From assembly GCF_025717515.1 (NCBI RefSeq), contig NZ_JAJIRN010000002.1, forward strand, positions 434,001-498,000: 64,000 nucleotides of DNA, given 5' to 3'. The translations under genes and the position numbers were made by a program. Under the pieces are notes generated by a model. The model was not told where the DNA came from, searched no databases, and saw only the letters and a program-made list of their open reading frames with translations. This stretch comes from Roseateles oligotrophus. Lineage in GTDB: Bacteria; Pseudomonadota; Gammaproteobacteria; Burkholderiales; Burkholderiaceae_C. Shown here piece by piece: positions 6,731 to 22,529 of this stretch (its first letter is position 1; each line of letters begins with the position of its first letter).

Positions 6731-7081
6731 GGCTTCCTCCTCGCGTCGTTGATTGAGTCAATACAGGCGTGCGCATGTTGGCGTCTCATCCGGCGCCATG
6801 CGAGCTTGGCGCGACGATATGACAAATGGCGAGCATCACTTGCACATGAGCACCCGCTTGTGTGCTAACCGGACGGCAAAGCGGCGCCCAAAGCCAATCT
6901 TGCGCTCCGTTGTGGACTCCTTGATTGCCCGCCGCAGTTGCTCGCAGTGAAACCCCAGGATCGTTTGTTCGAGGCATCCGTTTTTCCGAACAATCACAGA
7001 ACCATATTCGAGTTGTTTGATGCATTGAGGGACGACACAATGACCGTAAAGACAATTTCCACAATGAAAAGGACCTTTGCC
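6731..7081 (+). other. Divergent intergenic region upstream of the stress-protein gene
   Basis: 350 bases between the broken membrane gene (minus) and the USP gene (plus). It must hold both promoters. Small open frames here have no family resemblance. An upstream ATG at 6938 is in frame with the USP gene but would add 48 residues unlike the family. Confidence 0.5.
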
Positions 7082-8469: not shown

Positions 8470-8886
8470 TCAGTTCCGGGTCGATGACCGGAACATCTCG
8501 TGGTGCAAGCCCCAATGTTCGACGGCGGCGATAAGTACGTTCGATTCGCCGTCGTCGACCTGGGCATCGACTTCGGCAAGTTCGACACAGATGCGCAGCA
8601 CCTTCAGCCGCAGCGCGGGATCCTGGATCTCACCCATCAGGTCCGCCAGCGTGCGCTCATCCACCGGGCAGGTATCGGCCCAGTTCAACTGACCGCTCGA
8701 CAGCAAGTCTTCGCAGAAAGTGTCCAGCAGCGCAAGCAATTCATGCCTTGTCAGGCCGAGCTGCTCATGCACGGCGAGACGATCGAGACACTCGATCTCA
8801 GCCTCCGCGATGTCGCCGTCGGCGACCACCGTCAGCGCGACGATGCGGGCTGCGGCCTGTGGGCTGTTGACGGGATAGTGGCGCAT
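8470..8886 (-). CDS. TerB-like (tellurite resistance TerB fold) protein, paralogue 1
   Basis: A 138-residue, all-helical protein. The N-terminus RHYPVNSPQAAARIVALTVV and the acidic repeat EVDAQVDDGE (about residues 106-115) fit the TerB/DjlA metal-binding fold, where paired D/E-rich turns bind a divalent cation. It is clearly a paralogue of the protein at 12321-12755 (shared R-x-YP-x-NSP-x-AAARIVAL, DPAL-x-x-KVLR, DGE), roughly 40-45 percent identical by eye. Cytoplasmic; no signal peptide. TerB-type proteins are linked to tellurite, phage and envelope-stress resistance and often work at the membrane with TerC, which is encoded 5 kb away. Divergent from the DUF3616 operon. Confidence 0.75.
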   Translation of the reverse strand: MRHYPVNSPQAAARIVALTVVADGDIAEAEIECLDRLAVHEQLGLTRHELLALLDTFCEDLLSSGQLNWADTCPVDERTLADLMGEIQDPALRLKVLRICVELAEVDAQVDDGESNVLIAAVEHWGLHHEMFRSSTRN

Positions 8887-9102
8887 AGGGAGTCCTGTTT
8901 GATGGTTGATGGGCTTGGGTCACGGCTGCAATGTCGGGCACCCATTGCTTCCGAAAAAGCAGTTTTTCAGGAATTCGAACATCGGATAAACCTGAACAAG
9001 AGGCGGGCTTTTGAGCTCACACTTCAGCCTTTCGCGGGCGCAGCGAGCAAGAGTTGCAGCGCCCAAACCTTCTTGGTACCTCACCCTCTGGAGCACCATC
9101 CA

Positions 9103-10191
9103 ATGCCCAACACTCGAACCGCCAATGCCGTCCGTCTGGAGTTCGCTGCTGGCTCCCTGGTTCAATCCAACCTGTCGGGCGCCGCCTTCACCGGCGACTG
9201 GCTCTGGGTGGCGGGTGACGAAGCCTGTGGCCTGGACCGGCTGCGCCGGCTCGAACCCGTCGGGCGCGAGGCCTTGCGCTTTGGCGAGGCGCGCGATTTC
9301 CCGCTCGCCGATCTGCTGGACTTGCCCGGCACGGCCGAGGAAGAGGCCGATCTGGAAGGCATGGCCGTGGCCGACGGCTACCTCTGGGTGGTCGGCTCGC
9401 ATGGCCTGAAGCGCAAGAACGTCAAGCCGGACCGGGACCATGCCGACAACGCCAAGCGGCTGGCCAAGCTCGCGCTCGACGGCAACCGGCGCTTGCTGGC
9501 CTGTCTGCCGATCGAGCCCGATGCCCAGGGCGAACCCTGCCTGGTGCGACAGGCCCAGGATGGCCGCAAGGCGCTGCGACTGAAAGGGGATGCCCAATCG
9601 AACCTGCTCACTCGTGCGCTGGCTGGTGACCCCCATTTCGGTCCTTATATGGCGATCCCGGGCAAGGACAACGGCTTTGACATCGAAGGCCTGGCCGTCG
9701 ACGGCCGCCGCTTGCTGCTGGGCCTGCGCGGGCCGGTGCTGCGCGGCTGGTCGGCGCTGCTGGAAATCTCGGTTGAAGCCCGCGGTGAGCAACTGCGACT
9801 GCTGCCACTGGACGACAGCGGCACGCTGATCCGCAAACATTTCCTGCAGCTCGACGGCTTGGGCGTTCGCGACCTGCATTTCTCGGGCGATGACCTCTAC
9901 ATTCTGGCCGGCCCGACGATGGTGCTGAACGGTGACATCCGCGTCTTCAAATGGCCCGGCGCACGCACCCTGCTGGCCGCCAACCGCGAGCCCGTGCGTT
10001 TCGAGCAGGCGTTGACCGAGTCGGTTCCCTTGCCGCACGGTCGCGGCAGCAACCGCGCCGAGGCGATTTGCGATCTGCCGCCGGCCTTGTCCGGAGGCAA
10101 GGCAAGCTGGCTCGTCCTGTACGACGCGCCGGGTGCCGATCGCAAGGACGGCGAGCACGCCGTCTTCGGCGACCTGCTGCGCCACGATTGA
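9103..10191 (+). CDS. DUF3616 domain protein
   Basis: A 362-residue protein that matches the DUF3616 family: the block NGFDIEGLAVDG followed by LLLGLRGPVLRGWS (about residues 187-214) and the earlier DLEGMAVADGYLWVVGSHGLKR (about 84-105) are characteristic and suggest a beta-propeller built of EGLAV-type blades. No signal peptide or membrane segment is seen, so it is probably cytoplasmic. Biochemical role unknown. The ATG at 9103 has a GGAG site 12 bases before it. The frame is open far upstream but that part overlaps the divergent TerB gene. It heads a set of plus-strand genes with the lipid-kinase-like and phosphoesterase genes (spacing 31 bases, then overlap). Confidence 0.75.
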   Translation: MPNTRTANAVRLEFAAGSLVQSNLSGAAFTGDWLWVAGDEACGLDRLRRLEPVGREALRFGEARDFPLADLLDLPGTAEEEADLEGMAVADGYLWVVGSHGLKRKNVKPDRDHADNAKRLAKLALDGNRRLLACLPIEPDAQGEPCLVRQAQDGRKALRLKGDAQSNLLTRALAGDPHFGPYMAIPGKDNGFDIEGLAVDGRRLLLGLRGPVLRGWSALLEISVEARGEQLRLLPLDDSGTLIRKHFLQLDGLGVRDLHFSGDDLYILAGPTMVLNGDIRVFKWPGARTLLAANREPVRFEQALTESVPLPHGRGSNRAEAICDLPPALSGGKASWLVLYDAPGADRKDGEHAVFGDLLRHD

Positions 10192-10222
10192 GGGCGTTCA
10201 CCGCAAGTTGTCTCAATCAATC

Positions 10223-11221
10223 ATGGCAGATGCTCCCGAACTCGATCCTTTTGCGCCGATTCAATTCGTGATCAATGCGGCTGCGGGCAGCAGCGATGCG
10301 GACATGAAGCGCGAAGTCATCGAGTCGGTGCTGCGGGCAGAAGGCAGGTGCGGCGACTTGCACTTCTGCACACCCGGCCAATTGGCCGGCGTGGCGCGTG
10401 AGTCGGCGCAGCGGGCCCTGTCGACCCGCACGGCCGTGGTCGCCGTCGGCGGTGACGGCACGCTCAACACCGTCGCGCAGGCCGCTCATGCGGCGGGCTG
10501 CGCCATGGGGGTGGTGCCGCAGGGCACGTTCAACTACTTTGCCCGCACCCACGGCATTCCCGCCGACCCGGCCGAAGCGGTCCGCCTGTTGCTGCATGCA
10601 GCGCCGGTGCCGGTTCAGGTGGCCGGCATCAACGAGCGCGTGTTCCTGGTCAACGCCAGCCTGGGGCTCTATCCCGACCTGCTGGAAGACCGAGAAGCCT
10701 ACAAAGCCCGCTTCGGCCGTAGCCGCTGGGTGGCGTTCGTGGCGGCCTGCGCGACGCTGCTGCGGGCACAGCGCCGGCTGCGACTGCATATCGAGACTGG
10801 TGGCACGGTTCGCGACCTGCAAACCTTGACGCTTTTCGTGGGCAACAACCGGCTGCAACTGCAGCAGTTCGGTGCGGAGCCGGAAGATACCCTGGCCGGT
10901 ACGCCCGGCGACGGCAGCATGGCCGCGCTGGTGCTGCGGCCGATCGGAGCACTGTCGATGATGGGCTTGATGCTGCATGGCGCGATGGGCAGGCTGGGTG
11001 AGGCTGCCGGCGTGGAGCGCTTCGAGTTCGAGCATTTGGTGGTCAAGCCCACGCTGCCGCAGGGTCGTCGCGGGGTGAAGGTGGCCTTCGACGGCGAGGT
11101 GACGATGATGCGCGCGCCACTCGACTTCCGCGTGCTCGCCAAACCCCTGTACCTGCTGAGGCCGCATCGCAAGGCGGCCGCCATAGACGCCGCATCCCGC
11201 ACCGAAGAGGCAGGCGGATGA
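10223..11221 (+). CDS. Diacylglycerol/lipid kinase family protein
   Basis: A 332-residue protein with the catalytic domain of the diacylglycerol/sphingosine kinase superfamily: FVINAAAGSSDA at the N-terminus corresponds to the NPxSG strand, and VAVGGDGTLNTVAQAA (about residues 72-87) is the glycine-rich nucleotide-binding signature; VVPQGTFNYFAR matches the PLGTxNDFAR block. The C-terminal half (VKVAFDGEV) is the usual beta-sandwich lid. It would phosphorylate a lipid alcohol using ATP; substrate unknown. The stop overlaps the next ATG, so it is co-translated with the metallophosphoesterase, giving a kinase-phosphatase pair. Confidence 0.85.
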   Translation: MADAPELDPFAPIQFVINAAAGSSDADMKREVIESVLRAEGRCGDLHFCTPGQLAGVARESAQRALSTRTAVVAVGGDGTLNTVAQAAHAAGCAMGVVPQGTFNYFARTHGIPADPAEAVRLLLHAAPVPVQVAGINERVFLVNASLGLYPDLLEDREAYKARFGRSRWVAFVAACATLLRAQRRLRLHIETGGTVRDLQTLTLFVGNNRLQLQQFGAEPEDTLAGTPGDGSMAALVLRPIGALSMMGLMLHGAMGRLGEAAGVERFEFEHLVVKPTLPQGRRGVKVAFDGEVTMMRAPLDFRVLAKPLYLLRPHRKAAAIDAASRTEEAGG

Positions 11222-12015
11222 GCATCCTGCTGCAGATCTCCGACACGCATTTCGGCACCGAGCAGGCGCCGGTCGTCGAAGCGCTGGCCGCGCTGGCCCG
11301 GCAGCAGCGGCCCGATCTGGTCGTGCTGTCCGGCGACATCACTCAGCGCGCCCGCCCGGCGCAGTTCCGGGCCGCACGTGCATTTGTGGACCGCCTCGGC
11401 GCGCCGGTGCTGGCCGTTCCAGGCAACCACGACATCGCGCTGCTCGACCTGTGGGCGCGCTTGCGCCGCCCCTATGCCCGCTACAGCGCTGCCTTCGGCG
11501 CGGAACTCGAACCGGTGCACCGCTCGCCCGAGCTGATGGTCGTGTGCGTCAACACCACGCGGCCCTGGCGCCACAAGCATGGCGAGCTCTCCGGGCCGCA
11601 GATAGAACATGTGGCCCAACTTTTGGAGGGCGCCGAAGCTGCCCAGCTGCGGGTGGTGGTCGTGCACCAGCCCGTGGCCGTGACGCGTGACGAGGATCTA
11701 TCCAACCTTCTGCGCGGTCATGCGGCCGCGCTCGAGCGCTGGGCAGCGGCCGGGGCCGACCTCATCATGGGCGGGCACATCCACCTGCCTTACGTGATGC
11801 CGCTGCAAGGCCTGGCGCGTCCTCTGTGGGCCGTGCAGGCGGGCACGGCCGTCTCGTCTCGGCTGCGCAGGGGCGTGCCCAACTCGGTGAACCTGCTGCG
11901 CTGGGGCGCAGACTCGGCGCCTGGGTGCTGCCGGATCGAGCAATGGGACTTCTCGGCTGACATCCAAGCCTTCTTGCGCGCCAAGGTCACCGAGGTCCGG
12001 CCGGCCAGGGCCTAA
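11218..12015 (+). CDS. Calcineurin-like metallophosphoesterase
   Basis: A 265-residue cytoplasmic phosphoesterase. Metal-binding motifs are in the correct order: SDTHFG (near 8-13), VVLSGDITQRARPAQF (near 39-54), VPGNHDIALL, VVVHQP and GGHIHLPY. The layout is that of the CpdA/Icc and YkuE group, which hydrolyse cyclic nucleotides, UDP-diacylglucosamine or phospholipid headgroups. It begins with ATG inside the stop of the lipid-kinase gene (ATGA), so the two products probably act in one pathway. The downstream end abuts the palindromic element at 12018. Confidence 0.88.
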   Translation: MSILLQISDTHFGTEQAPVVEALAALARQQRPDLVVLSGDITQRARPAQFRAARAFVDRLGAPVLAVPGNHDIALLDLWARLRRPYARYSAAFGAELEPVHRSPELMVVCVNTTRPWRHKHGELSGPQIEHVAQLLEGAEAAQLRVVVVHQPVAVTRDEDLSNLLRGHAAALERWAAAGADLIMGGHIHLPYVMPLQGLARPLWAVQAGTAVSSRLRRGVPNSVNLLRWGADSAPGCCRIEQWDFSADIQAFLRAKVTEVRPARA

Positions 12016-12017
12016 CG

Positions 12018-12179
12018 AGTACAGCGTCCCGTCAGTATCGACACATGAAAGCGCGCCTTCACCCGCATGGCGGCGTTGCAAATCCTCTCGATACCCCCGG
12101 TATCGCTGCGGTTTGCGCCTTGCCCTGTGGGCGAATCCATCACTTTCATTTTGTGTCTCTACTTGCGGGACGCTGTACT
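12018..12179. mobile_element. MITE-like 162-bp imperfect palindrome
   Basis: The ends AGTACAGCGTCCCG (12018-12031) and CGGGACGCTGTACT (12166-12179) are perfect inverted repeats, and the match continues inward (GACACA-TGAAAG on the left against CTTTCATTTTGTGTC on the right), giving arms of about 35 bases. The centre is itself a hairpin, CGATACC-CCC-GGTATCG (12089-12105). The whole element therefore folds into one long stem. It encodes nothing, starts three bases after the phosphoesterase stop and lacks an evident target duplication. It looks like a miniature inverted-repeat element, or a large structured RNA/terminator. Confidence 0.6.
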
Positions 12180-12320
12180 AGGTCGCCAAGCCAGCTTCGT
12201 ATTTTCCTGAGCCCAAGTCACGAAAGAGCCGCTTCTTCCGAAGTTGATTCGGGTGCACATTGCAGCGTTCGGCATCTCTGTCGTTCACCTCAAACTGAGC
12301 TCCTGCAAAGAAAATCCATC
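12180..12320 (+). other. Leader region before the second TerB gene
   Basis: 141 bases between the palindrome and the GTG start at 12321. With the palindrome this makes a 305-base gene-free stretch. I see no strong promoter by eye; the upstream open frame that reads through has no family resemblance. Confidence 0.4.
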
Positions 12321-12755
12321 GTGCGCAACTACCCCCATAACAGCCCAGAAGCCGCCGCGCGCATCGTCGCCTTGGTGCTGATCTCCGACGGTCATGTGTG
12401 CAGTTCCGAGTTCGATGTCCTCAAGCAACTGGGCGCGGAGCGCGAACTTGGGCTCGATCCCGATCTGCTGCCGCACATCGTTCACACCTTGTGTGAGGAA
12501 CTGTTGGCCGGTGGCTACGCGACAGGCTCGCTGATGGCCCATGTCGATGACGCCGCGCTGGCGTCATTGATGGCCGAGATCTCGGATCCGGCGCTGCAAA
12601 GAAAGGTGCTGCGTCTATCCCTGGCCGCGGCGCGGGCCGATGGTCACTTGGCCGATGGCGAAACCTTGGTGCTGGAGGCCGCCCGGCACCATTGGAAGCT
12701 CGTCGATGGCGAGGAGCCGAGCGCCGTCAAGCCGGCCCGCCGCCGCGACGCCTGA
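12321..12755 (+). CDS. TerB-like protein, paralogue 2
   Basis: A 144-residue helical protein starting at GTG (VRNYPHNSPEAAARIVAL), chosen because this aligns exactly with the start of paralogue 1 (MRHYPVNSPQAAARIVAL) on the other strand at 8886. The acidic metal-site repeats are SDGHVCSSE (about residues 22-30) and ADGHLADGE (about 111-119), closer to the canonical TerB DG-x-x-x-x-x-E pattern than paralogue 1. The tail KPARRRDA is basic. Cytoplasmic. It lies behind the palindromic element and converges with nhaR. Inferred role: stress or metal/tellurite response partner of TerC. Confidence 0.75.
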   Translation: MRNYPHNSPEAAARIVALVLISDGHVCSSEFDVLKQLGAERELGLDPDLLPHIVHTLCEELLAGGYATGSLMAHVDDAALASLMAEISDPALQRKVLRLSLAAARADGHLADGETLVLEAARHHWKLVDGEEPSAVKPARRRDA

Positions 12756-12776
12756 GCGGCCATCTTCAATCCGCGA

Positions 12777-13658
12777 TCAAGGCTGTGACGCAGCCATCAG
12801 CTGCATCACCAAGGGGTGGTGCTGGCCGCGGCGTGAGCGGATGGCATGGATCTCTTCTTTGACGCCATCGCTGCTGCCCAGCAAGCGCAGGCCGCGCATC
12901 AAGCCGACGTCTCCTGCGCCCAGCCGGCTGACCGGGAACACGCCCAGCCCGCGGGCCCCGAACACCGCCAGCAGCGCACTGTCTTCGAACTCGCCGACGA
13001 TACGAGGTCGCAGGCCCTGCGTCTCGAACCAGCGGTCCAGCGCCGAGCGCAGGGCCGAGTGCCCGGTGGGCAGCAATACCGGCAGGTCGTTCAGGCTTTG
13101 CGGAAACCGGTCGCGCTCGGTCTTGCCGACCAGCCGGGCGGGCCCGTACCACTCGACCGGCGAATCGACGAGCCGCTCGCTGCTAAGACGAAGATTCGGG
13201 TTGCGCGGCGCCGCCTGGCCGGCCAGCACCAGGTCCAGGTGATGCAACGCCAGCTCGCTGAGCAACTGCTCGAACTCGCCCTCGTGGCAGACGAGCCGAA
13301 GATTGGGCGTGCTCAGCACCGGCTCCAGCAAGGCATAGGCGGCGAGCTTGGAGATGCCATCGGAGAGCCCGACCGCCAGGCGGGCCACCTTGCCGCTGGC
13401 CGCTTCGCGCACCTCGTCGGGGATGCCCTGGCCGAGCTGAAAAATCTCCTCGGCGCGTGCGAAGGCGGCCTGGCCTGCCTCGGTGAGGGCCACGCCCCGG
13501 CCCGAGGGCTTGAGGAGCTGGTGGCCCAGCGACTTCTCCAGCTCGCGCACCTGCGCGCTGATGGTCTGCACTGCCATGTCCAGTCGTTCGGCAGCGCGAG
13601 CAAACCCGCCTTCCTTGGTGACAACCCAGAAGTAATGAAGATGGCGATAGTTCAGCAT
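12777..13658 (-). CDS. nhaR: LysR-family regulator NhaR
   Basis: A 293-residue LysR-type protein. The first 60 residues (MLNYRHLHYFWVVTKEGGFA, RAAERLDMAVQTISAQVREL) match the NhaR subfamily, the Na+-responsive activator of the nhaA antiporter gene in E. coli. The effector domain and the length are normal. Its start has GGAG just upstream in GAGAGCGC. No nhaA antiporter gene is in the window; the divergent neighbours are a small membrane protein and TerC, so in this genome NhaR may respond to cation stress and control that pair. The intergenic region is 110 bases and must hold both promoters. Confidence 0.88.
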   Translation of the reverse strand: MLNYRHLHYFWVVTKEGGFARAAERLDMAVQTISAQVRELEKSLGHQLLKPSGRGVALTEAGQAAFARAEEIFQLGQGIPDEVREAASGKVARLAVGLSDGISKLAAYALLEPVLSTPNLRLVCHEGEFEQLLSELALHHLDLVLAGQAAPRNPNLRLSSERLVDSPVEWYGPARLVGKTERDRFPQSLNDLPVLLPTGHSALRSALDRWFETQGLRPRIVGEFEDSALLAVFGARGLGVFPVSRLGAGDVGLMRGLRLLGSSDGVKEEIHAIRSRRGQHHPLVMQLMAASQP

Positions 13659-13768
13659 GCGCTCTCCAGTGCGGGAAAACCGAAGTTTAAGTGCGTTTCA
13701 ATCTGGTTTGTTCGAAGCTGATAAATCTCCACACTCCGGGTCATTCGTTCACCAAAGAAAGTCCTGTC

Positions 13769-14179
13769 ATGTTCTACGCCCTCAGCTGGTTCTTCGTCAT
13801 CGCTCTGCTGGCGCTGTGGTCGCTGACGGCCTGGGCGCTGCATGCAGTGGCGGTCTGGACGGTCTCGAACGCCGGCGCGCTCACCGACGCTACCTCGGGC
13901 ACCGGCAGCATGGCCCTGCCGGACTGGCTGGCACCCTGGGTGCCGCCGGAAGTGGCACAGTGGGCCAGCTCCCTTTTGGGAGGCCTTGCGCCTTTCATTG
14001 ACAGCCTGCTGCAGGCAGCACCCGCACTGGCGGGTGGCTTGACGGTGGCGACCTGGGTGATCTGGGGCATCGGCAGCGTGCTGCTCGTGCTCTTGGGTGC
14101 TGGGCTGCACCTGCTCATCGCGCTGCTGCGCCGCAGCGGAGCCGGCCCGAAAGTTGGCCCGTCGTTCGCGGCAGGCTGA
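13769..14179 (+). CDS. Small two-helix membrane protein upstream of terC
   Basis: A 136-residue protein with a membrane helix at the N-terminus (FYALSWFFVIALLALWSLTAWAL), a central Pro/Trp-rich amphipathic stretch (MALPDWLAPWVPPEVAQW) and a second helix near the C-terminus (VATWVIWGIGSVLLVLLGAGLHLLIALL). I do not recognise a named family. The start at 13769 has a weak AAAGAAAG site; the frame is open 26 codons further up but that would begin in the nhaR promoter. It lies 31 bases before terC and is likely co-transcribed, so a role in the same membrane process is plausible. Confidence 0.65.
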   Translation: MFYALSWFFVIALLALWSLTAWALHAVAVWTVSNAGALTDATSGTGSMALPDWLAPWVPPEVAQWASSLLGGLAPFIDSLLQAAPALAGGLTVATWVIWGIGSVLLVLLGAGLHLLIALLRRSGAGPKVGPSFAAG

Positions 14180-14210
14180 TTCGGCGGTTCTGCAAATCTG
14201 AAAGCAAGGC

Positions 14211-15203
14211 ATGGACTTTCTACTCCCCTTCCTCATGGCCGACTTCCTGGGCACGCCCACCTGGATCTGGCTCAGCTTCGTCGGCGTCGTCATCGCGCTG
14301 CTGGCCTTCGACCTGGGCGTCCTGCACAGGGATGACCACGAGATCGGCGTGCAAGAAAGCCTGCTGCTCTCGGCCGGCTATATCAGCGTGGCCTTGCTCT
14401 TCGGGGCCTGGATCTGGTGGTATCTGGGCGCGCAAAGCGGTATGGACTACTACACCGGCTTCATGATCGAGAAGTCGCTGTCGATGGACAACGTCTTCGT
14501 CATCGCACTGATCTTCAGCTTCTTCGCCATCCCGCGCCAGTATCAGCACCGGGTGCTGTTCTGGGGCATCTTGGGTGTGATCGTGCTGCGCGCGATCATG
14601 ATCGGCTTGGGTGCGACGCTGGTGAGCCAGTTCAGCTGGGTGCTCTACCTGTTCGGTGCCTTCCTGATCTTCACCGGCATCAAGATGTGGATCATTGCCC
14701 ACCACATGCCCGACATCGCGAACAACCCGCTGCTGAAGTTCCTGAAACGGCATATACGCGTGACCGAGGGCCTGCGCGGCAATGCCTTCTGGGTGCGCGA
14801 GACCGACCCGAAGACGGGCAAAGTGGAGCGTTTTGCGACGCCCTTGTTCCTGGCTCTGGTGCTGGTCGAGTTCGTCGATCTCGTGTTCGCGGTCGATTCG
14901 GTGCCGGCGATCTTCGCCATCACCACCGACCCCTTCATCGTCTACACCAGCAATATCTTCGCGATCCTCGGCCTGCGCGCGCTGTACTTCGCGCTGGCCG
15001 CAATGATCCACCGCTTCAAATACCTGAAGTACGCCCTGGCTTTGGTGCTGGTGTTCATCGGCAGCAAGATCTTCCTGGTAGGCATCATCGGCAAGATACC
15101 GGCGGTGATCTCGCTGAGCGTGACCTTCGGGCTGATTGCCGGTGGTGTGCTGGTGTCGTTGTGGAAGACCCGCGAGCAGTCCTCTATCGCCGAGTCCACA
15201 TGA
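14211..15203 (+). CDS. TerC/Alx family membrane protein
   Basis: A 330-residue polytopic protein with about nine helices. It carries the TerC hallmarks: AFDLGVLHRDDHEIGVQESL near residue 27, EKSLSMDNVFVIALIFSFF (about 91-109) and the second acidic helix LVEFVDLVFAVDSVPAIFAIT (about 220-240). The intramembrane Asp residues in SMDN, FVDL and AVDSVPA are thought to move Mn2+ or other divalent ions in this family, and TerC with TerB gives tellurite resistance in ter operons. The 329-codon frame on the opposite strand is a shadow. Only 31 bases separate it from the previous gene, so there is no room for a dedicated yybP-ykoY riboswitch here. Confidence 0.9.
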   Translation: MDFLLPFLMADFLGTPTWIWLSFVGVVIALLAFDLGVLHRDDHEIGVQESLLLSAGYISVALLFGAWIWWYLGAQSGMDYYTGFMIEKSLSMDNVFVIALIFSFFAIPRQYQHRVLFWGILGVIVLRAIMIGLGATLVSQFSWVLYLFGAFLIFTGIKMWIIAHHMPDIANNPLLKFLKRHIRVTEGLRGNAFWVRETDPKTGKVERFATPLFLALVLVEFVDLVFAVDSVPAIFAITTDPFIVYTSNIFAILGLRALYFALAAMIHRFKYLKYALALVLVFIGSKIFLVGIIGKIPAVISLSVTFGLIAGGVLVSLWKTREQSSIAEST

Positions 15204-15849
15204 CGCCACCTATCACGCCGCGCCTGGCAGAGTCTCAAAGCGACGCGCCACTGGCCGCAACGCGAACTGGGCTTGCTGACTTCTATCTACAGCCGGGCCT
15301 GACGCCTGGCGAACACAAGCCTGAACCATCTCGCGGCTGCGGGCAGACGCTCATGTGCACCTGCCGCTATGGATTTGATGACCGCTATCGACCCACGGCT
15401 GTCCAAAGAACAGCGAACCACAACGCCGCAAGGCTGCTGCTCAACGTTGGCGTGAGTGGCAAACAACGGCGCGCGCAGTGCCTCCGAAGCGGTACATCGG
15501 CGCCCGCAATTGCTTGTCGACTCGATCAACTGATCCACCGGTCACCCAATGAGGAAGACGACGAATACGACAAGGCCATCGATCTGCCGCCGGTGCGCCA
15601 GGAACTGCCAGCTTGCCCGAGCTCGCAACCACGGGTTCGGAGGCAAGGCTTCGCGGTACTTGCGCGAGAGCAGCATGCAGGAGCACTACCACCAAGAGCG
15701 CCGCTTGGCCACCAGGCCAAAGGCACTTGGCGCACCCCATGCCGCCGTTGCGGCTATGTGCAAGAAGCTGACTGGAGGCGAGCCGCGCGGCCTGCGCGGC
15801 CGCCACAGTTCGGTTAGTCTATAAACTTGAATTCCCCGAGGAGCTACCC
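15204..15849. other. 646-base stretch with no recognised gene
   Basis: Several short frames exist (for example plus 15549-15824 and minus 15441-15806) but none resembles a family. A GC-rich stem (GCCGCGC 15782-15788 with GCGCGGC 15794-15800) stands before TAGTCTATAAACT, which can serve as the -10 region for the CBS gene. May be degraded coding DNA. Confidence 0.5.
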
Positions 15850-16278
15850 ATGAAACCTGTGTCCGAACTATTGAAACCACGCGATGGTACTTTGTGGCAG
15901 TTGCGCCGCGAAGACTCGGTGTACGCAGCGCTGGAATTGTTGGCACGCTATGACGTGGGCGCGCTCATGGTCATGGAAGGCGGGCGCCTAGTGGGAATAT
16001 TCAGTGAGCGCGACTACACGCGCAAGATCGCGCTGCAAGGCCGCGGCTCCAAGGACACTACGGTCGCCGAGATCATGACGACCAACGTCATCTCCGTCAC
16101 GCCGAGCACACGCACACACGCATGCATGTCCCTGATGAGAGACAAGCGCATCCGCCACCTGCCGGTGGTGGACGGCGACACCGTGTTGGGCATGATCTCG
16201 ATCCGCGACCTGATGGAACTCATCATTGCCGAGCATGAGGCCACGATCTCCCACCTTGAGAACTACATTCGGTCTTGA
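15850..16278 (+). CDS. Tandem CBS-domain protein
   Basis: A 142-residue protein made only of two CBS domains: residues about 8-62 (ALELLARYDVGALMVMEGGRLVGIFSERD) and about 72-130 (IMTTNVISVTPSTRTHACMS, KRIRHLPVVDGDTVLGMISIRDL). Such stand-alone pairs bind adenosine nucleotides such as AMP or ATP and act as energy or stress sensors. The start has a CCGAGGAGCT ribosome site. It is cytoplasmic. It sits between TerC and the large TerB-like protein, but with a 646-base gap upstream it is probably its own transcription unit. Confidence 0.88.
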   Translation: MKPVSELLKPRDGTLWQLRREDSVYAALELLARYDVGALMVMEGGRLVGIFSERDYTRKIALQGRGSKDTTVAEIMTTNVISVTPSTRTHACMSLMRDKRIRHLPVVDGDTVLGMISIRDLMELIIAEHEATISHLENYIRS

Positions 16279-16404
16279 GCTGAGCGTCTGCGGACCGGCC
16301 GTCGCCAAACGTCCACTCATGGCCGGTATTACCTCGCGCAGGGATGTCGCTAGACTGGACCTCTCGGTTTCCTTTCACCCCCTACCGGCGATCGACACCA
16401 ACCC

Positions 16405-17583
16405 ATGGACACTCCGCCCCTGCTTTGCGCACCATCTTTAGACGAAGTCGAACAGGTCGTCGCCGAGCCTTTGCGCTTCAAAGCCCGGCTGGCCATCGGC
16501 GAGGACGCTTACACCTCGCTGCGCATGATCAGCCGCACCCGCGAGATGTGGGATGTGCTGGGCGCTGCCGGCGCAGGCGCGGCGGTGGCCAAGACTGGCA
16601 TGGTTGCGGGAATGCTGGGCGCATCGGCTACGCCGATCGGATGGGTGGCGCTGGCGGCACTGGCCTCCGGTGGCGCCTGCTACGGGATGTACCGGCTGCT
16701 GGGTAACACCAAGGGTGAGCGGGTCATCGAGATCCCCAAGTACCTCAATACGCCGCTGGACACCTTGGGCTTGGCGATCTTCGACCTGATCGCGCCACTC
16801 TCGCTTCGGCTGGCTGCGGTCGATGGCGAAATCGAGGCTGCGGAACGCGCCTTCCTGATCCGCCATCTCGTGGACGACTGGGGCATGAATCGCAGCTTCG
16901 TTGAGCAGGCGGTGGCAGCAATCGAGCCGCGGCTGACAGAGGGCTCCATCGAATCGATGGCGGCGGAGGCTGCCGAGTTCTTGCATCTGAACCCGGATTG
17001 CAAGCACCAGGCCATCGCCAAGGATTTGGGCGTTTTCCTGCGCGCGATGCTGGAGACCTGTGGGCCGCTGAGCGATGCCGAAGAGGAGGCTCTTGCCAGC
17101 ACTCTGCAACTGATCGCCACCGCGCCACCGGGCGAGATGGCCAAGGCCTGGTCGCAGGCCATGACGCTCGCCGGCGGCGCCGCCGGGCAGGTGAAGACCG
17201 TGCTGACCGATGCGACCGGCTGGGCACTGGAGCGCTTGCCCAGCGAACAAGTAAAGGCCGGCGCGAGTGAAGCTGCAACGCGGGCCTATGTTGCTGCACG
17301 GCAAGCGGCAAACTGGACCCAGGATCACCTGCCGAGCGGCGATCAGGTGAAAGTAGTCGCGGGTGAAGCGGCCGCGCAGGCGCTCGCCGCGGCCCGCAAG
17401 GTTACGGCATCGACGCGCGAGCGGTTGCCGAGTGCGGAGCATGTGAAGACGCAAGCGGCCGAAGTCGCGGGCTTGGCCGCCGAGCGGGCGGCCGATGCGG
17501 CGAAGAGAGGGCTGGCGTGGGCGACAGAACAAGTTGCGGCTCGTTTGCCGAAACGGGACAAAGAACCGCCCGATACGCAATAG
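16405..17583 (+). CDS. TerB-like protein with glycine-zipper membrane segment and C-terminal repeats
   Basis: A 392-residue protein in three parts. Residues about 50-100 are small-residue-rich and hydrophobic (AAGAGAAVAKTGMVAGMLGA, then WVALAALASGGACYGMYRLLG), like a glycine zipper or helical hairpin that enters membranes. Residues about 130-245 form a TerB-like helical domain (LRLAAVDGEIEAAERAFLI ... GPLSDAEEEALASTL) with paired acidic turns. From residue 278 come three imperfect 31-32-residue repeats beginning LPSEQVK (278), LPSGDQVK (309) and LPSAEHVK (341), each continuing into an Ala-rich amphipathic helix, and a final LPKRDK. It is the third TerB-type protein in the block. Function unknown; membrane-associated stress scaffold is an inference. 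Confidence 0.7.
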   Translation: MDTPPLLCAPSLDEVEQVVAEPLRFKARLAIGEDAYTSLRMISRTREMWDVLGAAGAGAAVAKTGMVAGMLGASATPIGWVALAALASGGACYGMYRLLGNTKGERVIEIPKYLNTPLDTLGLAIFDLIAPLSLRLAAVDGEIEAAERAFLIRHLVDDWGMNRSFVEQAVAAIEPRLTEGSIESMAAEAAEFLHLNPDCKHQAIAKDLGVFLRAMLETCGPLSDAEEEALASTLQLIATAPPGEMAKAWSQAMTLAGGAAGQVKTVLTDATGWALERLPSEQVKAGASEAATRAYVAARQAANWTQDHLPSGDQVKVVAGEAAAQALAAARKVTASTRERLPSAEHVKTQAAEVAGLAAERAADAAKRGLAWATEQVAARLPKRDKEPPDTQ

Positions 17584-17874: not shown

Positions 17875-19002
17875 TCAAACCTTCAACTTATGCCGCCGCA
17901 GTGCCCATACCGCCAGCAAACTGAAACCCAGCGCTTGCCAGAGCAATATTTCGGCAAAAGGTTTGACTTCGGCCAGCGTCGCACCCATCTGGTTCAGGCG
18001 CACAAAGGTTTGAATACCGACCACCGCCGGGATCAAATCACCCAGCGCAAATAGCGGCGCCGGCAAGGCCTCGCGCGGCCAGGAAAAGCCGCTCAAAAAA
18101 GCGATCGGCAGCGAGGTGCACAAGAGTGCTTGCATGCTGCGTTCACGGTCGGCCAGCAAGGCCCCCAAAGCCACGCCTAGGGCCGCGATGGCCCAGCAAT
18201 AGGGCAAGAGCAGCAAGGCCGCGCCCAACAGATTTCCGCCGTGACCATAGTCGAAAAACCGGAAAACCGGGCCGAAGAACCAAGCAGCGGACAGCAAGCC
18301 AAAACCGGCAAAGGCAGCCGTCCGCGCGGCCCAGGTAGCGAGCGAATCGGCCGCCGGCCGGCGTTCAAACCAGGTGCCGACCCACATCGCAGTGCCGATC
18401 AACATCAGCTGCTGAATGATCAGCACCGACACGGCGGGCACCACATAACTGCCATAACCCTGGGTCGGGTTGTAGAGCGCCACCAAGCTCAAGTTCAAAG
18501 GGCTGCGGCTCGCTGCGGCCGCCAGCGGCGACGCGCCCTTGGCCTGCATTTGCCGCAACTCGGCGCCGGCCGAGACCGTGCCTATGACCTCGCCAAAACC
18601 ACTCAACACGACCTTGTTGATCAGGAAATACGCGCCGTCGGCCAAGACCGGCAGCACCACCCCCTGGCCATGCAGGACATCACGCTTCATATCCCTGGGC
18701 AACAAGACATAAGCCTCAATCTCCCGCCGGGCCAGCGCCGCTTTGGCTTCCGCCTCGCTGCTGGTGACAAAGCGCAAGTCCAAGCGCGGGCTGGCCTGCG
18801 TGAAGCGGCCGATCTGACGCGCGATATTGCTGTGGTCCTGGTCGACGATGGCCACCGGCACGCGCCGCAACTCCTGCGTCAGATAAGGCCAGGGGTAGAA
18901 GAAGGCATAAATGATCGGGGCGACGATGAACATCAGCAAACAGCCCTTGTCCGTCAAGGCGCTGCGCCAGGTCTCACCGATGGTTTTGAACCAGGCCCAC
19001 AT
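17875..19002 (-). CDS. ABC-2 type transporter permease (YhhJ/YbhR-like), second of a pair
   Basis: A 375-residue inner-membrane protein. One helix near the N-terminus (GCLLMFIVAPIIYAFFYPW) is followed by a large periplasmic domain of about 140 residues (VPVAIVDQDHSNIARQIGRF...) and then five helices, the standard ABC-2 permease layout used in drug or polysaccharide export. The frame is open upstream but the true start is the ATG at 19002, which overlaps the stop of the upstream permease (ATGA). Last gene of the tolC-hlyD-permease-permease operon. No ATPase gene accompanies the pair. Confidence 0.88.
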   Translation of the reverse strand: MWAWFKTIGETWRSALTDKGCLLMFIVAPIIYAFFYPWPYLTQELRRVPVAIVDQDHSNIARQIGRFTQASPRLDLRFVTSSEAEAKAALARREIEAYVLLPRDMKRDVLHGQGVVLPVLADGAYFLINKVVLSGFGEVIGTVSAGAELRQMQAKGASPLAAAASRSPLNLSLVALYNPTQGYGSYVVPAVSVLIIQQLMLIGTAMWVGTWFERRPAADSLATWAARTAAFAGFGLLSAAWFFGPVFRFFDYGHGGNLLGAALLLLPYCWAIAALGVALGALLADRERSMQALLCTSLPIAFLSGFSWPREALPAPLFALGDLIPAVVGIQTFVRLNQMGATLAEVKPFAEILLWQALGFSLLAVWALRRHKLKV

Positions 19003-20156
19003 CAGCGCTTGCCCCAGCAAGCCGGCGTCACCGCCGCACGTTTGAGCAGGGCGGCGCTGGCCAGCAACAGCAGCGCTGTGACCAGGCTCAGCCAACCCGC
19101 CAATGGCAAGAGCGCGGCCGCCGCGCGGCCCTGCTGCAGCAGGCCGACCTGCGCCTCCAGTACCCAGGCCAGCGGCAAGGCCTCGGCCCATTGCCGGGCA
19201 CCGCCGGGCATGGCCATCAAAGGGAAGGCCAGGCCCGAGAACGCAAAGGCCGGCGCGGTAATGAAGCCTGCGGCCGACAGCGCCGTGCGCAAGCTTCTGC
19301 TGGCCAGGGCCACAAACGCACCCAAGCCCCAGTACAGCGCCAGCATCAGCGCATGCAAGCCCAGCAAGACGGCCAGCGCATCCCGCTGCACCAAGCCCAG
19401 TTGCCACATCAGCAACCACAAGATCAGGTTGACCCCATTCAGCAGCAGCGTGGCCGGCAGCAGCTTGAGCAGCACCGCAGGCAAGACCTGCCCCTGCCCG
19501 GCGGCCAGCCATTGCGGCGCCGTTGCATCGCGCAACTCGACTCCCACGGCCCAGGCGCCGGCCACCATCGCCAACATATGCAGCAGCGCCGGCAGCAGCG
19601 CGGCGGCGAGAAACTGCTGGTAGTTCAGCGTCGGGTTGTAGATCGCCTGCAGATTGGCACGCAGCGGCTCGAAGCCCTCGTGCGCGGCCAGCGCGCTTTG
19701 ACCGCGCTTCTCGCGCGCAATGATTTCGATGCCGGCCGACAGCGTGCCGACCACCGTGCGCACATCTTTCTGAATCAGCCCCGAGTGGGTCGCGAATTGG
19801 GCGTTATGCAGCAGAGCCAGCTTGGCCGCTCTGCCCTGCTTGATCTCGTCGCTGAAGCCGGCCGGCATTACCAGCGCGCCATAAACTCGGCCGGCGCGCA
19901 ACGCCCTTTGCATCTCGCCTTCGTCACTGAATTGCGCCGCGATCTGCAGGCCGGGGGCTGCGTCCAGCATGCGGCTCAACTGACGCGACAACGCGCTGTG
20001 GTCGCCGTCCAGGATGCCGATCGGCAAGCGCGTCGGCAGGCCGGCGGCAAAGGTCCAGATCAAAAGCAGGCCCATCAAGAGCGGCAGCCATGACAGCATG
20101 GCCAGATCGAAAGGGCTGGCGCGCAGCCGCGCCCATTCCCTGCCCAAGACTTCCAT
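19002..20156 (-). CDS. ABC-2 type transporter permease, first of a pair
   Basis: A 384-residue homologue of the downstream permease: N-terminal helix (MLSWLPLLMGLLLIWTFAAG), a periplasmic domain starting LPIGILDGDHSALSRQLSRM, which parallels VPVAIVDQDHSNIARQIGRF in its partner, then helices to the C-terminus. The two would form a heterodimeric channel. Start directly follows the stop of the HlyD gene with no gap (TAA then ATG), so translation is tightly coupled. Energy source is unclear because the operon lacks a nucleotide-binding subunit. Confidence 0.88.
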   Translation of the reverse strand: MEVLGREWARLRASPFDLAMLSWLPLLMGLLLIWTFAAGLPTRLPIGILDGDHSALSRQLSRMLDAAPGLQIAAQFSDEGEMQRALRAGRVYGALVMPAGFSDEIKQGRAAKLALLHNAQFATHSGLIQKDVRTVVGTLSAGIEIIAREKRGQSALAAHEGFEPLRANLQAIYNPTLNYQQFLAAALLPALLHMLAMVAGAWAVGVELRDATAPQWLAAGQGQVLPAVLLKLLPATLLLNGVNLILWLLMWQLGLVQRDALAVLLGLHALMLALYWGLGAFVALASRSLRTALSAAGFITAPAFAFSGLAFPLMAMPGGARQWAEALPLAWVLEAQVGLLQQGRAAAALLPLAGWLSLVTALLLLASAALLKRAAVTPACWGKR

Positions 20157-21128
20157 TTACTTGACCAACACGCTCATGCCCGGCCGCGCACCGGCGATGG
20201 GCTTCAGCGGCTGCGCCTTGACCTCGAAGGTGCGCAGGTCATAGCCCTGGTTGTTGCGGGTGGCGCGCCAGGTGGCAAAGTCGGGCAAGGCCTGCGAGCC
20301 GACAACCTTGAAGCGCACCGCTTGATAGGAAAGCGCCGGCAGCGTGGCATCGAACTCCTGTCCGACAGCAAAGCGCTTGAGCTGATCTTCGCGCACGTTC
20401 AGCAGCATCCATTGATCGGCCAGATCCACCACGGTGATCACCGGCACGCCGGCCGGCGACAACTCGCCCACCTTGGCCAAGAGCTTGGCCACCTCGCCGG
20501 CCACCGGGCTCTTCAGCTCGGTCTCGGCACGGGCCGCTTCCACCTCTTGAACGGCACCGGCCACCTGAGCGGCTTGAGCGTTAGCGGCGGCCTGGTCTTC
20601 GCTGCGCGCGCCAGCCCTGGCCATATCGGCCTGGGCACGGGCGGCATTCGCCAGGCCTTGGGCTGAGCGCCAATTGGCCTCGGCCTCGTCGCGCTTTTGG
20701 GCCGCCACCAAGCCTTCTTTGTAAAGACCGTCAACCCGCTCGAAACTCTTGCGCGCCAGGTCGACCCCGACCTGTGCGCGCTCAAAATTAGCTTGCGCCA
20801 TCCGGATCTCTTCCGGCCGGGCGCCGTTCTTGGCTTTTTGCGCGACCGCTGCAGCCGCCGCCGCGGCATTGCTGGCCTGCGTCATCTTGGCCGCCACCTC
20901 GGGGCTGTCGATACGCAGAATCAACCCGCCTTTTTCTATGCGCTGGCCTTCTTGCACCAGCAGTTCGATCACGCGGCCGGTCAGCTTGGGCGCGATGTCG
21001 GTCTCGCGCGCTTCCATCATGCCCTGCAGTTGTTCGGGTGCGGGAGGGTTGTGCTGCAGCATGGCATAGACACCGACGCCCAGCACCGTCACGGCAATTG
21101 CGGGCACTAGAAATTTAGGCAAGTTCAT
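20157..21128 (-). CDS. HlyD-family membrane fusion (periplasmic adaptor) protein
   Basis: A 323-residue adaptor. One N-terminal helix (LVPAIAVTVLGVGVYAML) anchors it; residues about 40-75 (RETDIAPKLTGRVIELLVQE, GQRIEKGGLILRIDSPE) are the first half of the lipoyl-like domain; residues about 75-200 form a long Ala/Arg/Gln-rich coiled-coil hairpin that should dock on the TolC partner; then the second lipoyl half (SPVAGEVAKLLAKVGELSPAG) and a beta-barrel. It links the inner-membrane permeases to the outer-membrane channel encoded 18 bases upstream. Confidence 0.9.
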   Translation of the reverse strand: MNLPKFLVPAIAVTVLGVGVYAMLQHNPPAPEQLQGMMEARETDIAPKLTGRVIELLVQEGQRIEKGGLILRIDSPEVAAKMTQASNAAAAAAAVAQKAKNGARPEEIRMAQANFERAQVGVDLARKSFERVDGLYKEGLVAAQKRDEAEANWRSAQGLANAARAQADMARAGARSEDQAAANAQAAQVAGAVQEVEAARAETELKSPVAGEVAKLLAKVGELSPAGVPVITVVDLADQWMLLNVREDQLKRFAVGQEFDATLPALSYQAVRFKVVGSQALPDFATWRATRNNQGYDLRTFEVKAQPLKPIAGARPGMSVLVK

Positions 21129-21146
21129 CGGCTATCTCGTCTTCTT

Positions 21147-22529
21147 CTATTCAACTCGCAGATCGGCGCGGGCCAGGTAATCGCCCAGGCTCTCGATCTG
21201 CCCGCTGGCCTGCAGCAGGCCGACCAAGGCCATCACATGCTCGTAGGCAACCTGCGCGCGTTCGGTGCGCAGCTTGGCCAGGTTCAGCTCGGCGTCGATC
21301 AAATCCAAAGCGGTGCTGGTACCCTGCTTCAGGCCAACCCGGCGCAGATGCAAGAGCTCCAGCCCTAACTCATCCTGCGCGGCCAGGCTCAGGTATTGCG
21401 AGCGCGCTTGTTCGGCGCTGCGCCATTGGCGCTCGACCAACAGGGTGATGTCGCTGCGGGCCTGCGCTTCGGCCGCGTCGACCTGGGCAAGCTGATTGAG
21501 GTGGGAGCGATTCAACGCGTCGTGATCCAGCGAGTCCCAAAGATTGACACGTATGCCGACCCCGGCCAGCCAGTCGCCGTTATGGGTCAAGGAACGCTGG
21601 CCGAAGGCAAACACCTGCGGCCGCTCAAGTGCTTTGGAGCCGGCTTTCAATTGTTCGGCCTGCGAGCGTTTGGCCGCCACCTTGGCCAGGCCCGGGTGCA
21701 AGGTCAGCGCGGTGGTGAGGAAGTCTTGCAGCGGCGGCAGCGGCTGGGAGCTCAGCGCCAGCGGCGTGCTCGGCGTCGGTGCACCATCCATTTTGACGGT
21801 TCGGGCCAAGGCGATGGCGATCAATTCGGCATCGCTGCGCGCCTTGCGGGCCTGATGCTGAGCGTCTTGCAAGGCGGCGCGCGCCTGCAGGCGCTCCAGT
21901 TTGGAGGCGACCCCGGCCAACAGCATCTTCTCGGCCGCAGCGTCATGCTCGGCCACGCCGGCGGCGGCGGCCTCGCGCAGACTGGCCGCGCGGCGCGCCA
22001 TCTGGGTCTGAAAATAACGTTGCGCCAGCAGGGACAGCGCCTCTTCCTCGCTGTGGTTCAACTCGGCCTGCGCCTCGGCGCTTTGCGCCGCGGCCATGCC
22101 GCGTATCGCATCGGTGGCGCCGCCCAGGTAAATCGGCCAGACGGCATTCAGCAGCGCGGCCTGATTGGCATTGCTGCGCGAAAGCGTGGCGTTGTGGGGC
22201 AGCGGCGGCAAAGGCGGCAACTGGCCGGCAAGACCGGGCGGCAGCAAACTGATCACATTGCCCAGCCCCTGATTGAGCGGATCGAGATTCAGATCGACGC
22301 TGGCCTTGTAGCTATAGGCCGCGCCGTAGACGCTGATGATGGGGCCGCCCGCATTGGCGATACCCTCGGCCTGGGCCTGGCGCTGCGCCACCGCCGCGCG
22401 CGCTCCGGCCAACTGATCGGAGTTTTGCTGCACCAACTGCACGGCTTCGGGCCAGCTGAGTGCAGCGGCGCTAACGCTACTCGCCCACAGCAAAGGCAGG
22501 CAGAGCGACAACAAGGAGGCGGCATTCAT
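21147..22529 (-). CDS. TolC-family outer-membrane efflux protein
   Basis: A 460-residue protein with a signal peptide (MNAASLLSLCLPLLWASSVSAAA) and two OEP repeats: the first helical arm begins LSWPEAVQLVQQNSDQLAGA, the second around LTTALTLHPGLAKVAAKRSQ, the usual duplicated coiled-coil architecture of TolC. I chose the ATG at 22529 for the signal peptide; the longer frame back to 22736 overlaps the divergent gene start at 22647. First gene of the four-gene minus-strand efflux operon. The mature protein would form the outer-membrane exit duct. Confidence 0.88.
   Translation of the reverse strand: MNAASLLSLCLPLLWASSVSAAALSWPEAVQLVQQNSDQLAGARAAVAQRQAQAEGIANAGGPIISVYGAAYSYKASVDLNLDPLNQGLGNVISLLPPGLAGQLPPLPPLPHNATLSRSNANQAALLNAVWPIYLGGATDAIRGMAAAQSAEAQAELNHSEEEALSLLAQRYFQTQMARRAASLREAAAAGVAEHDAAAEKMLLAGVASKLERLQARAALQDAQHQARKARSDAELIAIALARTVKMDGAPTPSTPLALSSQPLPPLQDFLTTALTLHPGLAKVAAKRSQAEQLKAGSKALERPQVFAFGQRSLTHNGDWLAGVGIRVNLWDSLDHDALNRSHLNQLAQVDAAEAQARSDITLLVERQWRSAEQARSQYLSLAAQDELGLELLHLRRVGLKQGTSTALDLIDAELNLAKLRTERAQVAYEHVMALVGLLQASGQIESLGDYLARADLRVE

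Follow-up and report, generated by a model that had tools for sequence, protein, structure and literature searches.

The 64,000-nucleotide stretch of Roseateles oligotrophus DNA analysed here (contig NZ_JAJIRN010000002.1, positions 434,001 to 498,000; hereafter the window) probably holds one locus of a NhaR-type regulon for cation or alkali stress of the envelope. The locus encodes two small TerB-family proteins (TerB1 and TerB2), a TerC protein, a DUF3616 protein, a lipid kinase and a phosphoesterase, together with a NhaR-like regulator of the LysR type. The regulon itself, composed of a divergent regulator, paired predicted operator boxes, three promoters and a recurring gene set, is supported at the sequence level. 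In Burkholderiales, NhaR-like LysR genes are often found beside genes for TerB, TerC or an exchanger, a small membrane protein, an S30AE-like protein and BI-1, and the same set further includes zinc ribbon, ExoD, DUF3616, lipid kinase and phosphoesterase genes. As the NhaR-like switch is shared and the set recurs in related bacteria, we regard the locus as one uncharacterised ion-stress response and not as a tellurite operon.

Predicted operators of the NhaR-like regulator

At 76 of 91 NhaR-like genes the nearest called neighbour is a divergent module gene, which may be memP, encoding a small hydrophobic protein (30 cases), S30AE (14), BI-1 (14), TerB (10), TerC (5) or others (3); this upstream set is biased, as most loci were fetched via TerB. 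From 82 of the upstream regions, reduced to 41 at 60% identity, a motif search returned GnTTCgnAaAAAcCaG with 12.6 bits, compared with 6.9–7.3 bits in six shuffled sets. The motif is a LysR T-N11-A box, TTCGnAAAAACCAG, learned only upstream of NhaR-like regulators outside the window; the matrix contains no window sequence, but includes near relatives of the window's NhaR/memP region. In 20 of the 41 regions the best box is located 69–72 bases ahead of the conserved start of the regulator, and in four it is located at 37 bases; 17 of the former 20 carry a second box of at least 6 bits downstream, as do 5.3% of shuffled segments. The second box of the memP class, recognised by eye, is the palindrome TTCGGTTTTTCCGAA. 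Both GnTTCgnAaAAAcCaG and TTCGGTTTTTCCGAA fit the LysR T-N11-A rule as it is quoted in PMC6307784.

Scanning the window with the position weight matrix (PWM), we found that its five best sites, starting in order of rank at 8947, 13703, 8979, 12229 and 8960, all fall into three module promoters, namely those of TerB1/DUF3616, TerB2 and NhaR/memP (Table 1). The best site in each of 30 Markov sequences averaged 15.8 bits and reached 19.4 bits at the highest, so that the two strongest boxes exceed all of them and the third-ranked box exceeds the mean, while the remaining two are unremarkable when taken alone. The palindromic box in the NhaR/memP promoter comes from a pattern search that gave another, chance-level match in the window. 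Both plus-strand boxes of the TerB1/DUF3616 promoter align in seven of seven chosen relatives, with a base change in the second box of one of them (L034), and they also align to the S30AE/NhaR operator of a second locus in the same genome, which is described below. A scan for sigma-70 promoters and terminators gave no signal above shuffles.

Promoters outside the training set carry the predicted operator as well. A site above 13 bits was found in 19 of 23 DUF3616-upstream regions and in 16 of 20 intergenic regions between the phosphoesterase (or lipid kinase) gene and TerB2, the window's included, compared with 65 of 768 other intergenic regions, a class that includes TerB, TerC and S30AE promoters. 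The window's own row among the four DUF3616 misses is an artefact of a called start at 8515 that is too early; we set the start at the ATG at 9103. Sites are also denser in the two non-training promoter classes, at 2.5 and 3.7 per kb, than in other intergenic DNA (0.58) or in coding DNA (0.03). Genome-wide, the two-box pattern gave 15 sites versus seven for the reversed control. Six of the 15 are intergenic, two of these being situated at the two NhaR-like loci; no module gene was noticed among the open reading frames (ORFs) flanking the other four.

Aligned with E. coli NhaR across 287 columns, nearly its whole length, the regulator shows 33% identity, and its predicted operator resembles the published E. 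coli NhaR consensus strings. PMC6307784 calls the NhaR motif not well characterised and gives the PRODORIC consensus TcgtaAaAAac next to its authors' own string, TCgaAAAAatCtA; only 2 of 5000 letter-shuffles of the former and 8 of 5000 of the latter score as well against our matrix. Upstream of E. coli nhaA, the matrix finds a site of 12.5 bits 105 bp before the gene, a moderate result with 15 of 380 null windows scoring as well. The gene arrangement differs, as E. coli has nhaR behind nhaA in the same orientation, whereas the window's regulator is divergent from memP-TerC and the module genes are TerB, TerC, BI-1, S30AE and others. NhaA is the classical target of NhaR. Unlike E. coli, the R. 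oligotrophus genome gave no match to NhaA at E<=0.001 anywhere in its sequence. Among 62 sampled family genomes with the close NhaR-like clade, NhaA scores over the cut-off in 16 and does not in the other 46, and the presence of NhaA shows no association with that of the clade (P 0.31).

Table 1. Coordinates of the genes and predicted operators of the locus in the window.
Feature	Position	Strand	Basis
TerB1, small TerB-family protein, 138 amino acids (aa)	8470..8886	(-)	Pfam TerB (PF05099) 26.3 bits, cut-off 24.4
NhaR-type operator (predicted), TerB1/DUF3616 divergent promoter	8947..8994	(+)	PWM hits 1, 3 and 5
Box in this operator	8947..8962	(+)	20.5 bits
Box in this operator	8979..8994	(+)	16.6 bits
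Box in this operator	8960..8975	(-)	14.8 bits
DUF3616 protein	9103..10191	(+)	Pfam DUF3616 402 bits
Diacylglycerol-kinase-type lipid kinase (DAGK)	10223..11221	(+)	DAGK_cat 67 bits
Calcineurin-like metallophosphoesterase (MPE)	11218..12015	(+)	Metallophos 56 bits
NhaR-type box (predicted) upstream of TerB2	12229..12244	(-)	Fourth PWM hit, 15.1 bits
TerB2, small TerB-family protein, 144 aa	12321..12755	(+)	GTG start; Pfam TerB 18.8 bits, cut-off 24.4
NhaR-like LysR-type regulator	12777..13658	(-)	Pfam HTH_1 and LysR_substrate
NhaR-type operator (predicted), NhaR/memP divergent promoter	13670..13718	(-)	Second PWM hit
Box in this operator	13703..13718		20.0 bits
Palindromic box in this operator	13670..13684		Pattern search
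memP, hydrophobic 136-aa protein	13769..14179	(+)	No Pfam match at E<=0.1
TerC, Alx subfamily	14211..15203	(+)	TIGR03718 410 bits, cut-off 246

Recurrence of the gene set in relatives

All genes named by the original prediction are present where it placed them, including those for a USP protein and a protein with two CBS domains. A scan with TerB2 yielded 77 loci on public contigs, many of them closely related and some short, in which genes were counted by tblastn with single checked references at a minimum of 50 bits. A NhaR-like gene was present in 63 of them, followed by S30AE-like (34), memP (29), BI-1 (27), DUF3616 (27), TerC (26), ExoD (24), DAGK (23), UPF0114 (20), MPE (19), memP2 (17), zinc ribbon (16), CopD-like (16) and Na+/Ca2+ exchanger genes (11). 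These counts are not independent, since L113 and L114 repeat the contigs of L066 and L036, and the Pfam names of the added partner genes rest on examples. The S30AE assignment is weak, with two examples scoring 16.9 and 21.9 bits and one 48.5 bits against a cut-off of 23.7. For BI-1, the 402-aa cluster member of L096 is an over-long ORF extending back across NhaR, and the gene of L161 was seen by tblastn and missed by the gene calls.

In the window's orientation, fuller relatives such as L112 carry TerB1, zinc ribbon, BI-1 and S30AE on the minus strand, then DUF3616, UPF0114, DAGK, MPE and TerB2 on the plus strand, and, to the right, NhaR on the minus strand followed by memP, TerC or the exchanger, ExoD and CopD on the plus strand. 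The module is larger than the original prediction saw, which missed S30AE, BI-1, zinc ribbon and the shared operator; its grouping of DUF3616, DAGK and MPE with TerB, TerC and the NhaR-like gene is borne out in nearer relatives. Several relatives keep S30AE, BI-1 and zinc ribbon between TerB1 and DUF3616. These three genes are absent from the window's locus, where TerB1 is adjacent to an operator of S30AE type, and appear to have been lost from it. They are present at the second NhaR-like locus of the same genome (C53:253000-272900, L110), which also holds TerB3, ExoD and SbtA; the genes there are divergent from the second NhaR-like gene, and the locus has its own operator-pattern site. About 1.3 kb past that regulator there is a gene for a carbonic anhydrase.

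The CBS protein and a 392-aa protein at 16405-17583, which the original prediction had included, do not belong to the set: tblastn gave no match of at least 60 bits for either in the 77 loci, and none of the ten best window sites lies in the intergenic DNA before their genes. Membership of USP is doubtful, as it likewise had no such match in the 77 loci and has a weak paired site upstream in the window. This NhaR-type box pair, at 6960-6992, is one of three paired-site places in the window, with 0.8 pairs expected per 64 kb.

A conserved neighbourhood of TerB, TerC and the NhaR-like gene is supported, and TerB-like places lie near NhaR-like genes more often than chance would give among 150 sampled genomes of the family, our own genome with its three TerB-like places included. 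We found 46 TerB-like places in 30 of the 150 genomes, 30 of all 46 lying within 7 kb of a NhaR-like gene. For the 30 places scoring at least 80 bits, such a gene is at most 3 kb away in 22 cases and at most 7 kb away in 24, the latter at a chance of about 0.004 for each place. The close NhaR-like clade occurs in 20 of 22 TerB genomes and in 42 of the remaining 128 (Fisher P 2.8e-7, uncorrected for phylogeny). At 20 NhaR-like loci where TerB was not nearby, tblastn detected another module gene in 13, namely TerC, BI-1, S30AE, the exchanger, SbtA, ExoD or zinc ribbon.

At the level of the order, 55 of 300 genomes gave a TerB match, and nine of 20 loci fetched have a NhaR-like neighbour of at least 40% identity, often together with S30AE or TerC. 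Ten of the other 11 show AAA ATPase, thioesterase and/or USP genes, or genes for a Mrp Na+/H+ antiporter; the Pfam names were verified on one example of each kind, and we read the ATPase as being of MoxR type. The TerB-like proteins of these ten loci are 30–38% identical to the nearest reference, and in contrast to the window the loci have no NhaR-like gene of at least 40% identity. L186, L190 and L192 combine TerB-like genes and Mrp-type antiporter subunits in one stretch.

Some variants of the locus were also observed. In L102, L104, L105, L106 and L107 (Rhodocyclales/Sulfuritalea-type), a PAP2 phosphatase and a small protein are encoded beside NhaR, with TerC past them where the contig reaches. 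L036 has an additional group with a distant NhaR (39%), S30AE (48.5 bits), USP, TerB and TerC-like genes adjoining the usual TerB2-NhaR-memP arrangement. L038, from a Chloroflexota metagenome-assembled genome, is very like the Burkholderiales locus L040 and probably mis-binned. Within the window's locus, the MPE start overlaps the DAGK stop by four bases, and the best NCBIfam model for the lipid kinase is MamU at 146 bits, under its cut-off of 400. Further downstream, at 17875-22529 on the minus strand, an apparent efflux cluster was recognised by reading the sequence, with two ABC-2 type permeases, an HlyD-like protein and an outer-membrane-factor-like ORF.

TerB family members and the TerC slot

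The original prediction described two short TerB paralogues on opposite strands. Their genes and their relatedness stand, with 46% identity across 127 aa; TerB1 passes the Pfam cut-off narrowly, and TerB2 remains under it. Of 29 diverse members of the TerB alignment A2, TerB1 and TerB2 included, 28 match Pfam TerB at E<=0.01. D107 and E114 never vary in an alignment of 41 sequences, and D23, G24 and E30 are conserved to at least 90%, so that two D-x6-E pairs (D23/E30 and D107/E114) are conserved. The predicted structure of TerB1 is all-helical, at a mean predicted local distance difference test (pLDDT) score of 80.9. A Foldseek confirmation of the fold was not obtained, none of 150 matches in the PDB (the best 50 being listed) having E<=0.001, and a profile search of PDB sequences gave 2h5n as its top match (E 0.063).

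The 392-aa protein, put forward as a third, larger TerB-type protein, was not confirmed as such. Its own sequence has no Pfam TerB match, three of its relatives score 13.1, 18.5 and 23.6 bits and thereby all fall below the cut-off, and a profile comparison between TerB1/TerB2 and its family was weak. A structure model of the protein made without an alignment was unusable (pLDDT 40), and judged from sequence it may at most be called TerB-like. Elsewhere in the genome, a far stronger TerB match of 116.5 bits is located at C23:337963-338313; the stretch of 10 kb retrieved around this match (L111) has no NhaR-like gene.

Downstream of memP, TerC alternates with a Na+/Ca2+ exchanger. Within 5 kb of the 39 NhaR genes of at least 75% identity, 17 loci have TerC, eight the exchanger, 14 neither and none both. 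The window's TerC resembles the TerC/Alx and MeeF/MeeY metal proteins in passing TIGR03718. Unlike TerC/Alx genes with a riboswitch, it has a NhaR-type operator, and Rfam gave no match to the manganese riboswitch yybP-ykoY at this gene or in the loci of the genome's three full TerC copies. No such riboswitch was detected in nine other loci either, where one unrelated Rfam match occurred (L177).

Alternative readings and biological meaning

Several points weigh against a NhaR-type ion-stress regulon. The regulator scores 175 bits on the NCBIfam NhaR model and does not reach the equivalog cut-off of 219, which is why we call it NhaR-like. TerB lies within 7 kb of only 21 of 67 close NhaR-like genes (at least 49% identity), and seven of the 20 NhaR-like loci lacking TerB nearby have no module gene by tblastn (eight by gene calls). 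The motif is A-rich and the operator a prediction, and nine of the 91 NhaR-upstream regions (L064, L156, L157, L158, L160, L163, L166, L168 and L172) were removed by eye before the motif search. Seven of these have a co-directional neighbour and two, L158 and L172, a divergent one, and the co-directional L067, L159 and L161 were kept. The DUF3616-promoter test is not fully independent, because related S30AE/NhaR operators were in training. Within 300 bp upstream of E. coli pgaA and osmC nothing notable was found (164 of 394 and 125 of 386 null windows as good, respectively), and a palindromic site 289 bp from pgaA appeared only after a later, wider look. The hypergeometric P of 0.005 for the co-absence of TerC and exchanger is nominal, the loci being related, some of them duplicates and seven of the stretches short. 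Finally, the signal, the ion specificity, the biochemistry and metal binding by TerB are what we infer.

Three rival readings were compared with the regulon. It is doubtful that the locus instead serves Mn/Zn homeostasis, with TerC exporting Mn2+ or loading it onto exported enzymes, TerB as a metal chaperone and a LysR regulator sensing metal and not Na+ or pH. The TIGR03718 description as a metal homeostasis membrane protein, the D-x6-E motifs of TerB and papers on TerC in Mn metalation and detoxification (PMC10550928, PMC13274385) would agree with it; however, the operator matches the consensus of a Na+/pH regulator, the riboswitch was not found at the window's TerC or near the other tested loci, and SbtA and the Na+/Ca2+ exchanger as partners point to Na+, Ca2+ or bicarbonate. 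We hold it unlikely that there is no functional module at all, merely inherited gene order with A-rich promoter elements resembling a NhaR box. Many of the 77 loci are indeed close relatives with a common gene order, and other intergenic regions do reach 13 bits, though TerB, TerC and S30AE promoters are among them. Against this stand the nine of 20 order-level loci in which more distant families retain TerB beside a NhaR-like gene, often accompanied by S30AE or TerC, the site densities of the non-training promoters and the fixed box position in many regions.

More improbable still is a reduced ter system, in which TerB and TerC would form a tellurite, phage and colicin resistance core with accessory lipid enzymes. 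Like the ter operon (terZABCDEF) of Klebsiella and E. coli plasmids, the locus unites the TerB and TerC families, and a K. pneumoniae study (PMC12054061) connects terC with resistance to phage and to Te(IV), Zn(II) and Mn(II) and considers a complex of TerC with TerB. The locus differs from that operon in its Alx-type TerC and its NhaR-like control element, and a search of the entire genome at E<=0.001 gave nothing matching TerD, whose absence the original prediction had noted (no other models were tried for TerA and TerZ). The reading as a ter operon was rejected on the missing TerD. A defence system was rejected too, with one weak PADLOC match among nine proteins, to the phosphoesterase, whose matches to two NCBIfam anti-phage models, 46.6 bits against a cut-off of 420 and 28.5 against 790, are far too low. 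NhaR-like operators and the exchanger in the TerC slot of eight of 39 loci likewise speak against a reduced ter system. Of the ter-like core with lipid enzyme pair and cation-responsive regulator that had been proposed, the shared neighbourhood is supported, the regulator type having a common predicted operator ahead of module genes, and the tellurite/phage core is not supported.

For the regulon reading, we propose that the regulator would be acted on at the paired boxes by a rise in cytoplasmic Na+ or pH, in analogy to what NhaR senses, or by an imbalance of divalent cations linked to it, and that the controlled proteins would shield translation and the inner membrane. Mn2+, Ca2+ or other divalent ions would be moved by TerC or the exchanger, and TerB with its two conserved D-x6-E motifs may be a cytosolic metal-binding partner of TerC. 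BI-1, as a putative Ca2+ channel, might together with SbtA of the second locus adjust Ca2+ and bicarbonate, while the lipid kinase, the phosphoesterase and ExoD would adjust the envelope and the S30AE-like protein would act on ribosomes. Ribosome control is a plausible shared theme, as the expression of rsd and rmf in E. coli is influenced by NhaR (PMC10003395). According to the same source, RMF increased when nhaR was lost; the sign would be opposite if the module switches the S30AE-like gene on, which again weighs against our reading. Among open-licence papers, we found none combining TerB, TerC and NhaR and none joining a TerB domain with TerC and calcium, and those on Bax inhibitor with TerC or on a divergent LysR-type NhaR in Burkholderia did not by title deal with such a module. 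DUF3616 appears in three of the open-licence papers.

The predicted operator shared by the module genes suggests that a NhaR-type regulator can serve non-NhaA targets in a lineage in which NhaA is lacking from most sampled genomes with such a regulator (46 of 62). As a tentative extension, NhaA-less Burkholderiales might have rewired the NhaR-type switch to a Ca2+/Mn2+ stress programme, in which TerB would be the cation-binding adaptor or effector that couples TerC or the exchanger and BI-1 to S30AE ribosome control and lipid turnover. If this were true, the locus would represent a bacterial cation-signalling system with TerB as effector and TerC and the exchanger interchangeable. That a Na+/Ca2+ exchanger can take the place of TerC gives a hint of the substrate of TerC. 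TerB, TerC, bacterial BI-1, DUF3616 and ExoD have roles that we judge uncertain, and one operator of a Na+/alkaline-pH-type regulator would provide a common, testable condition for all of them.

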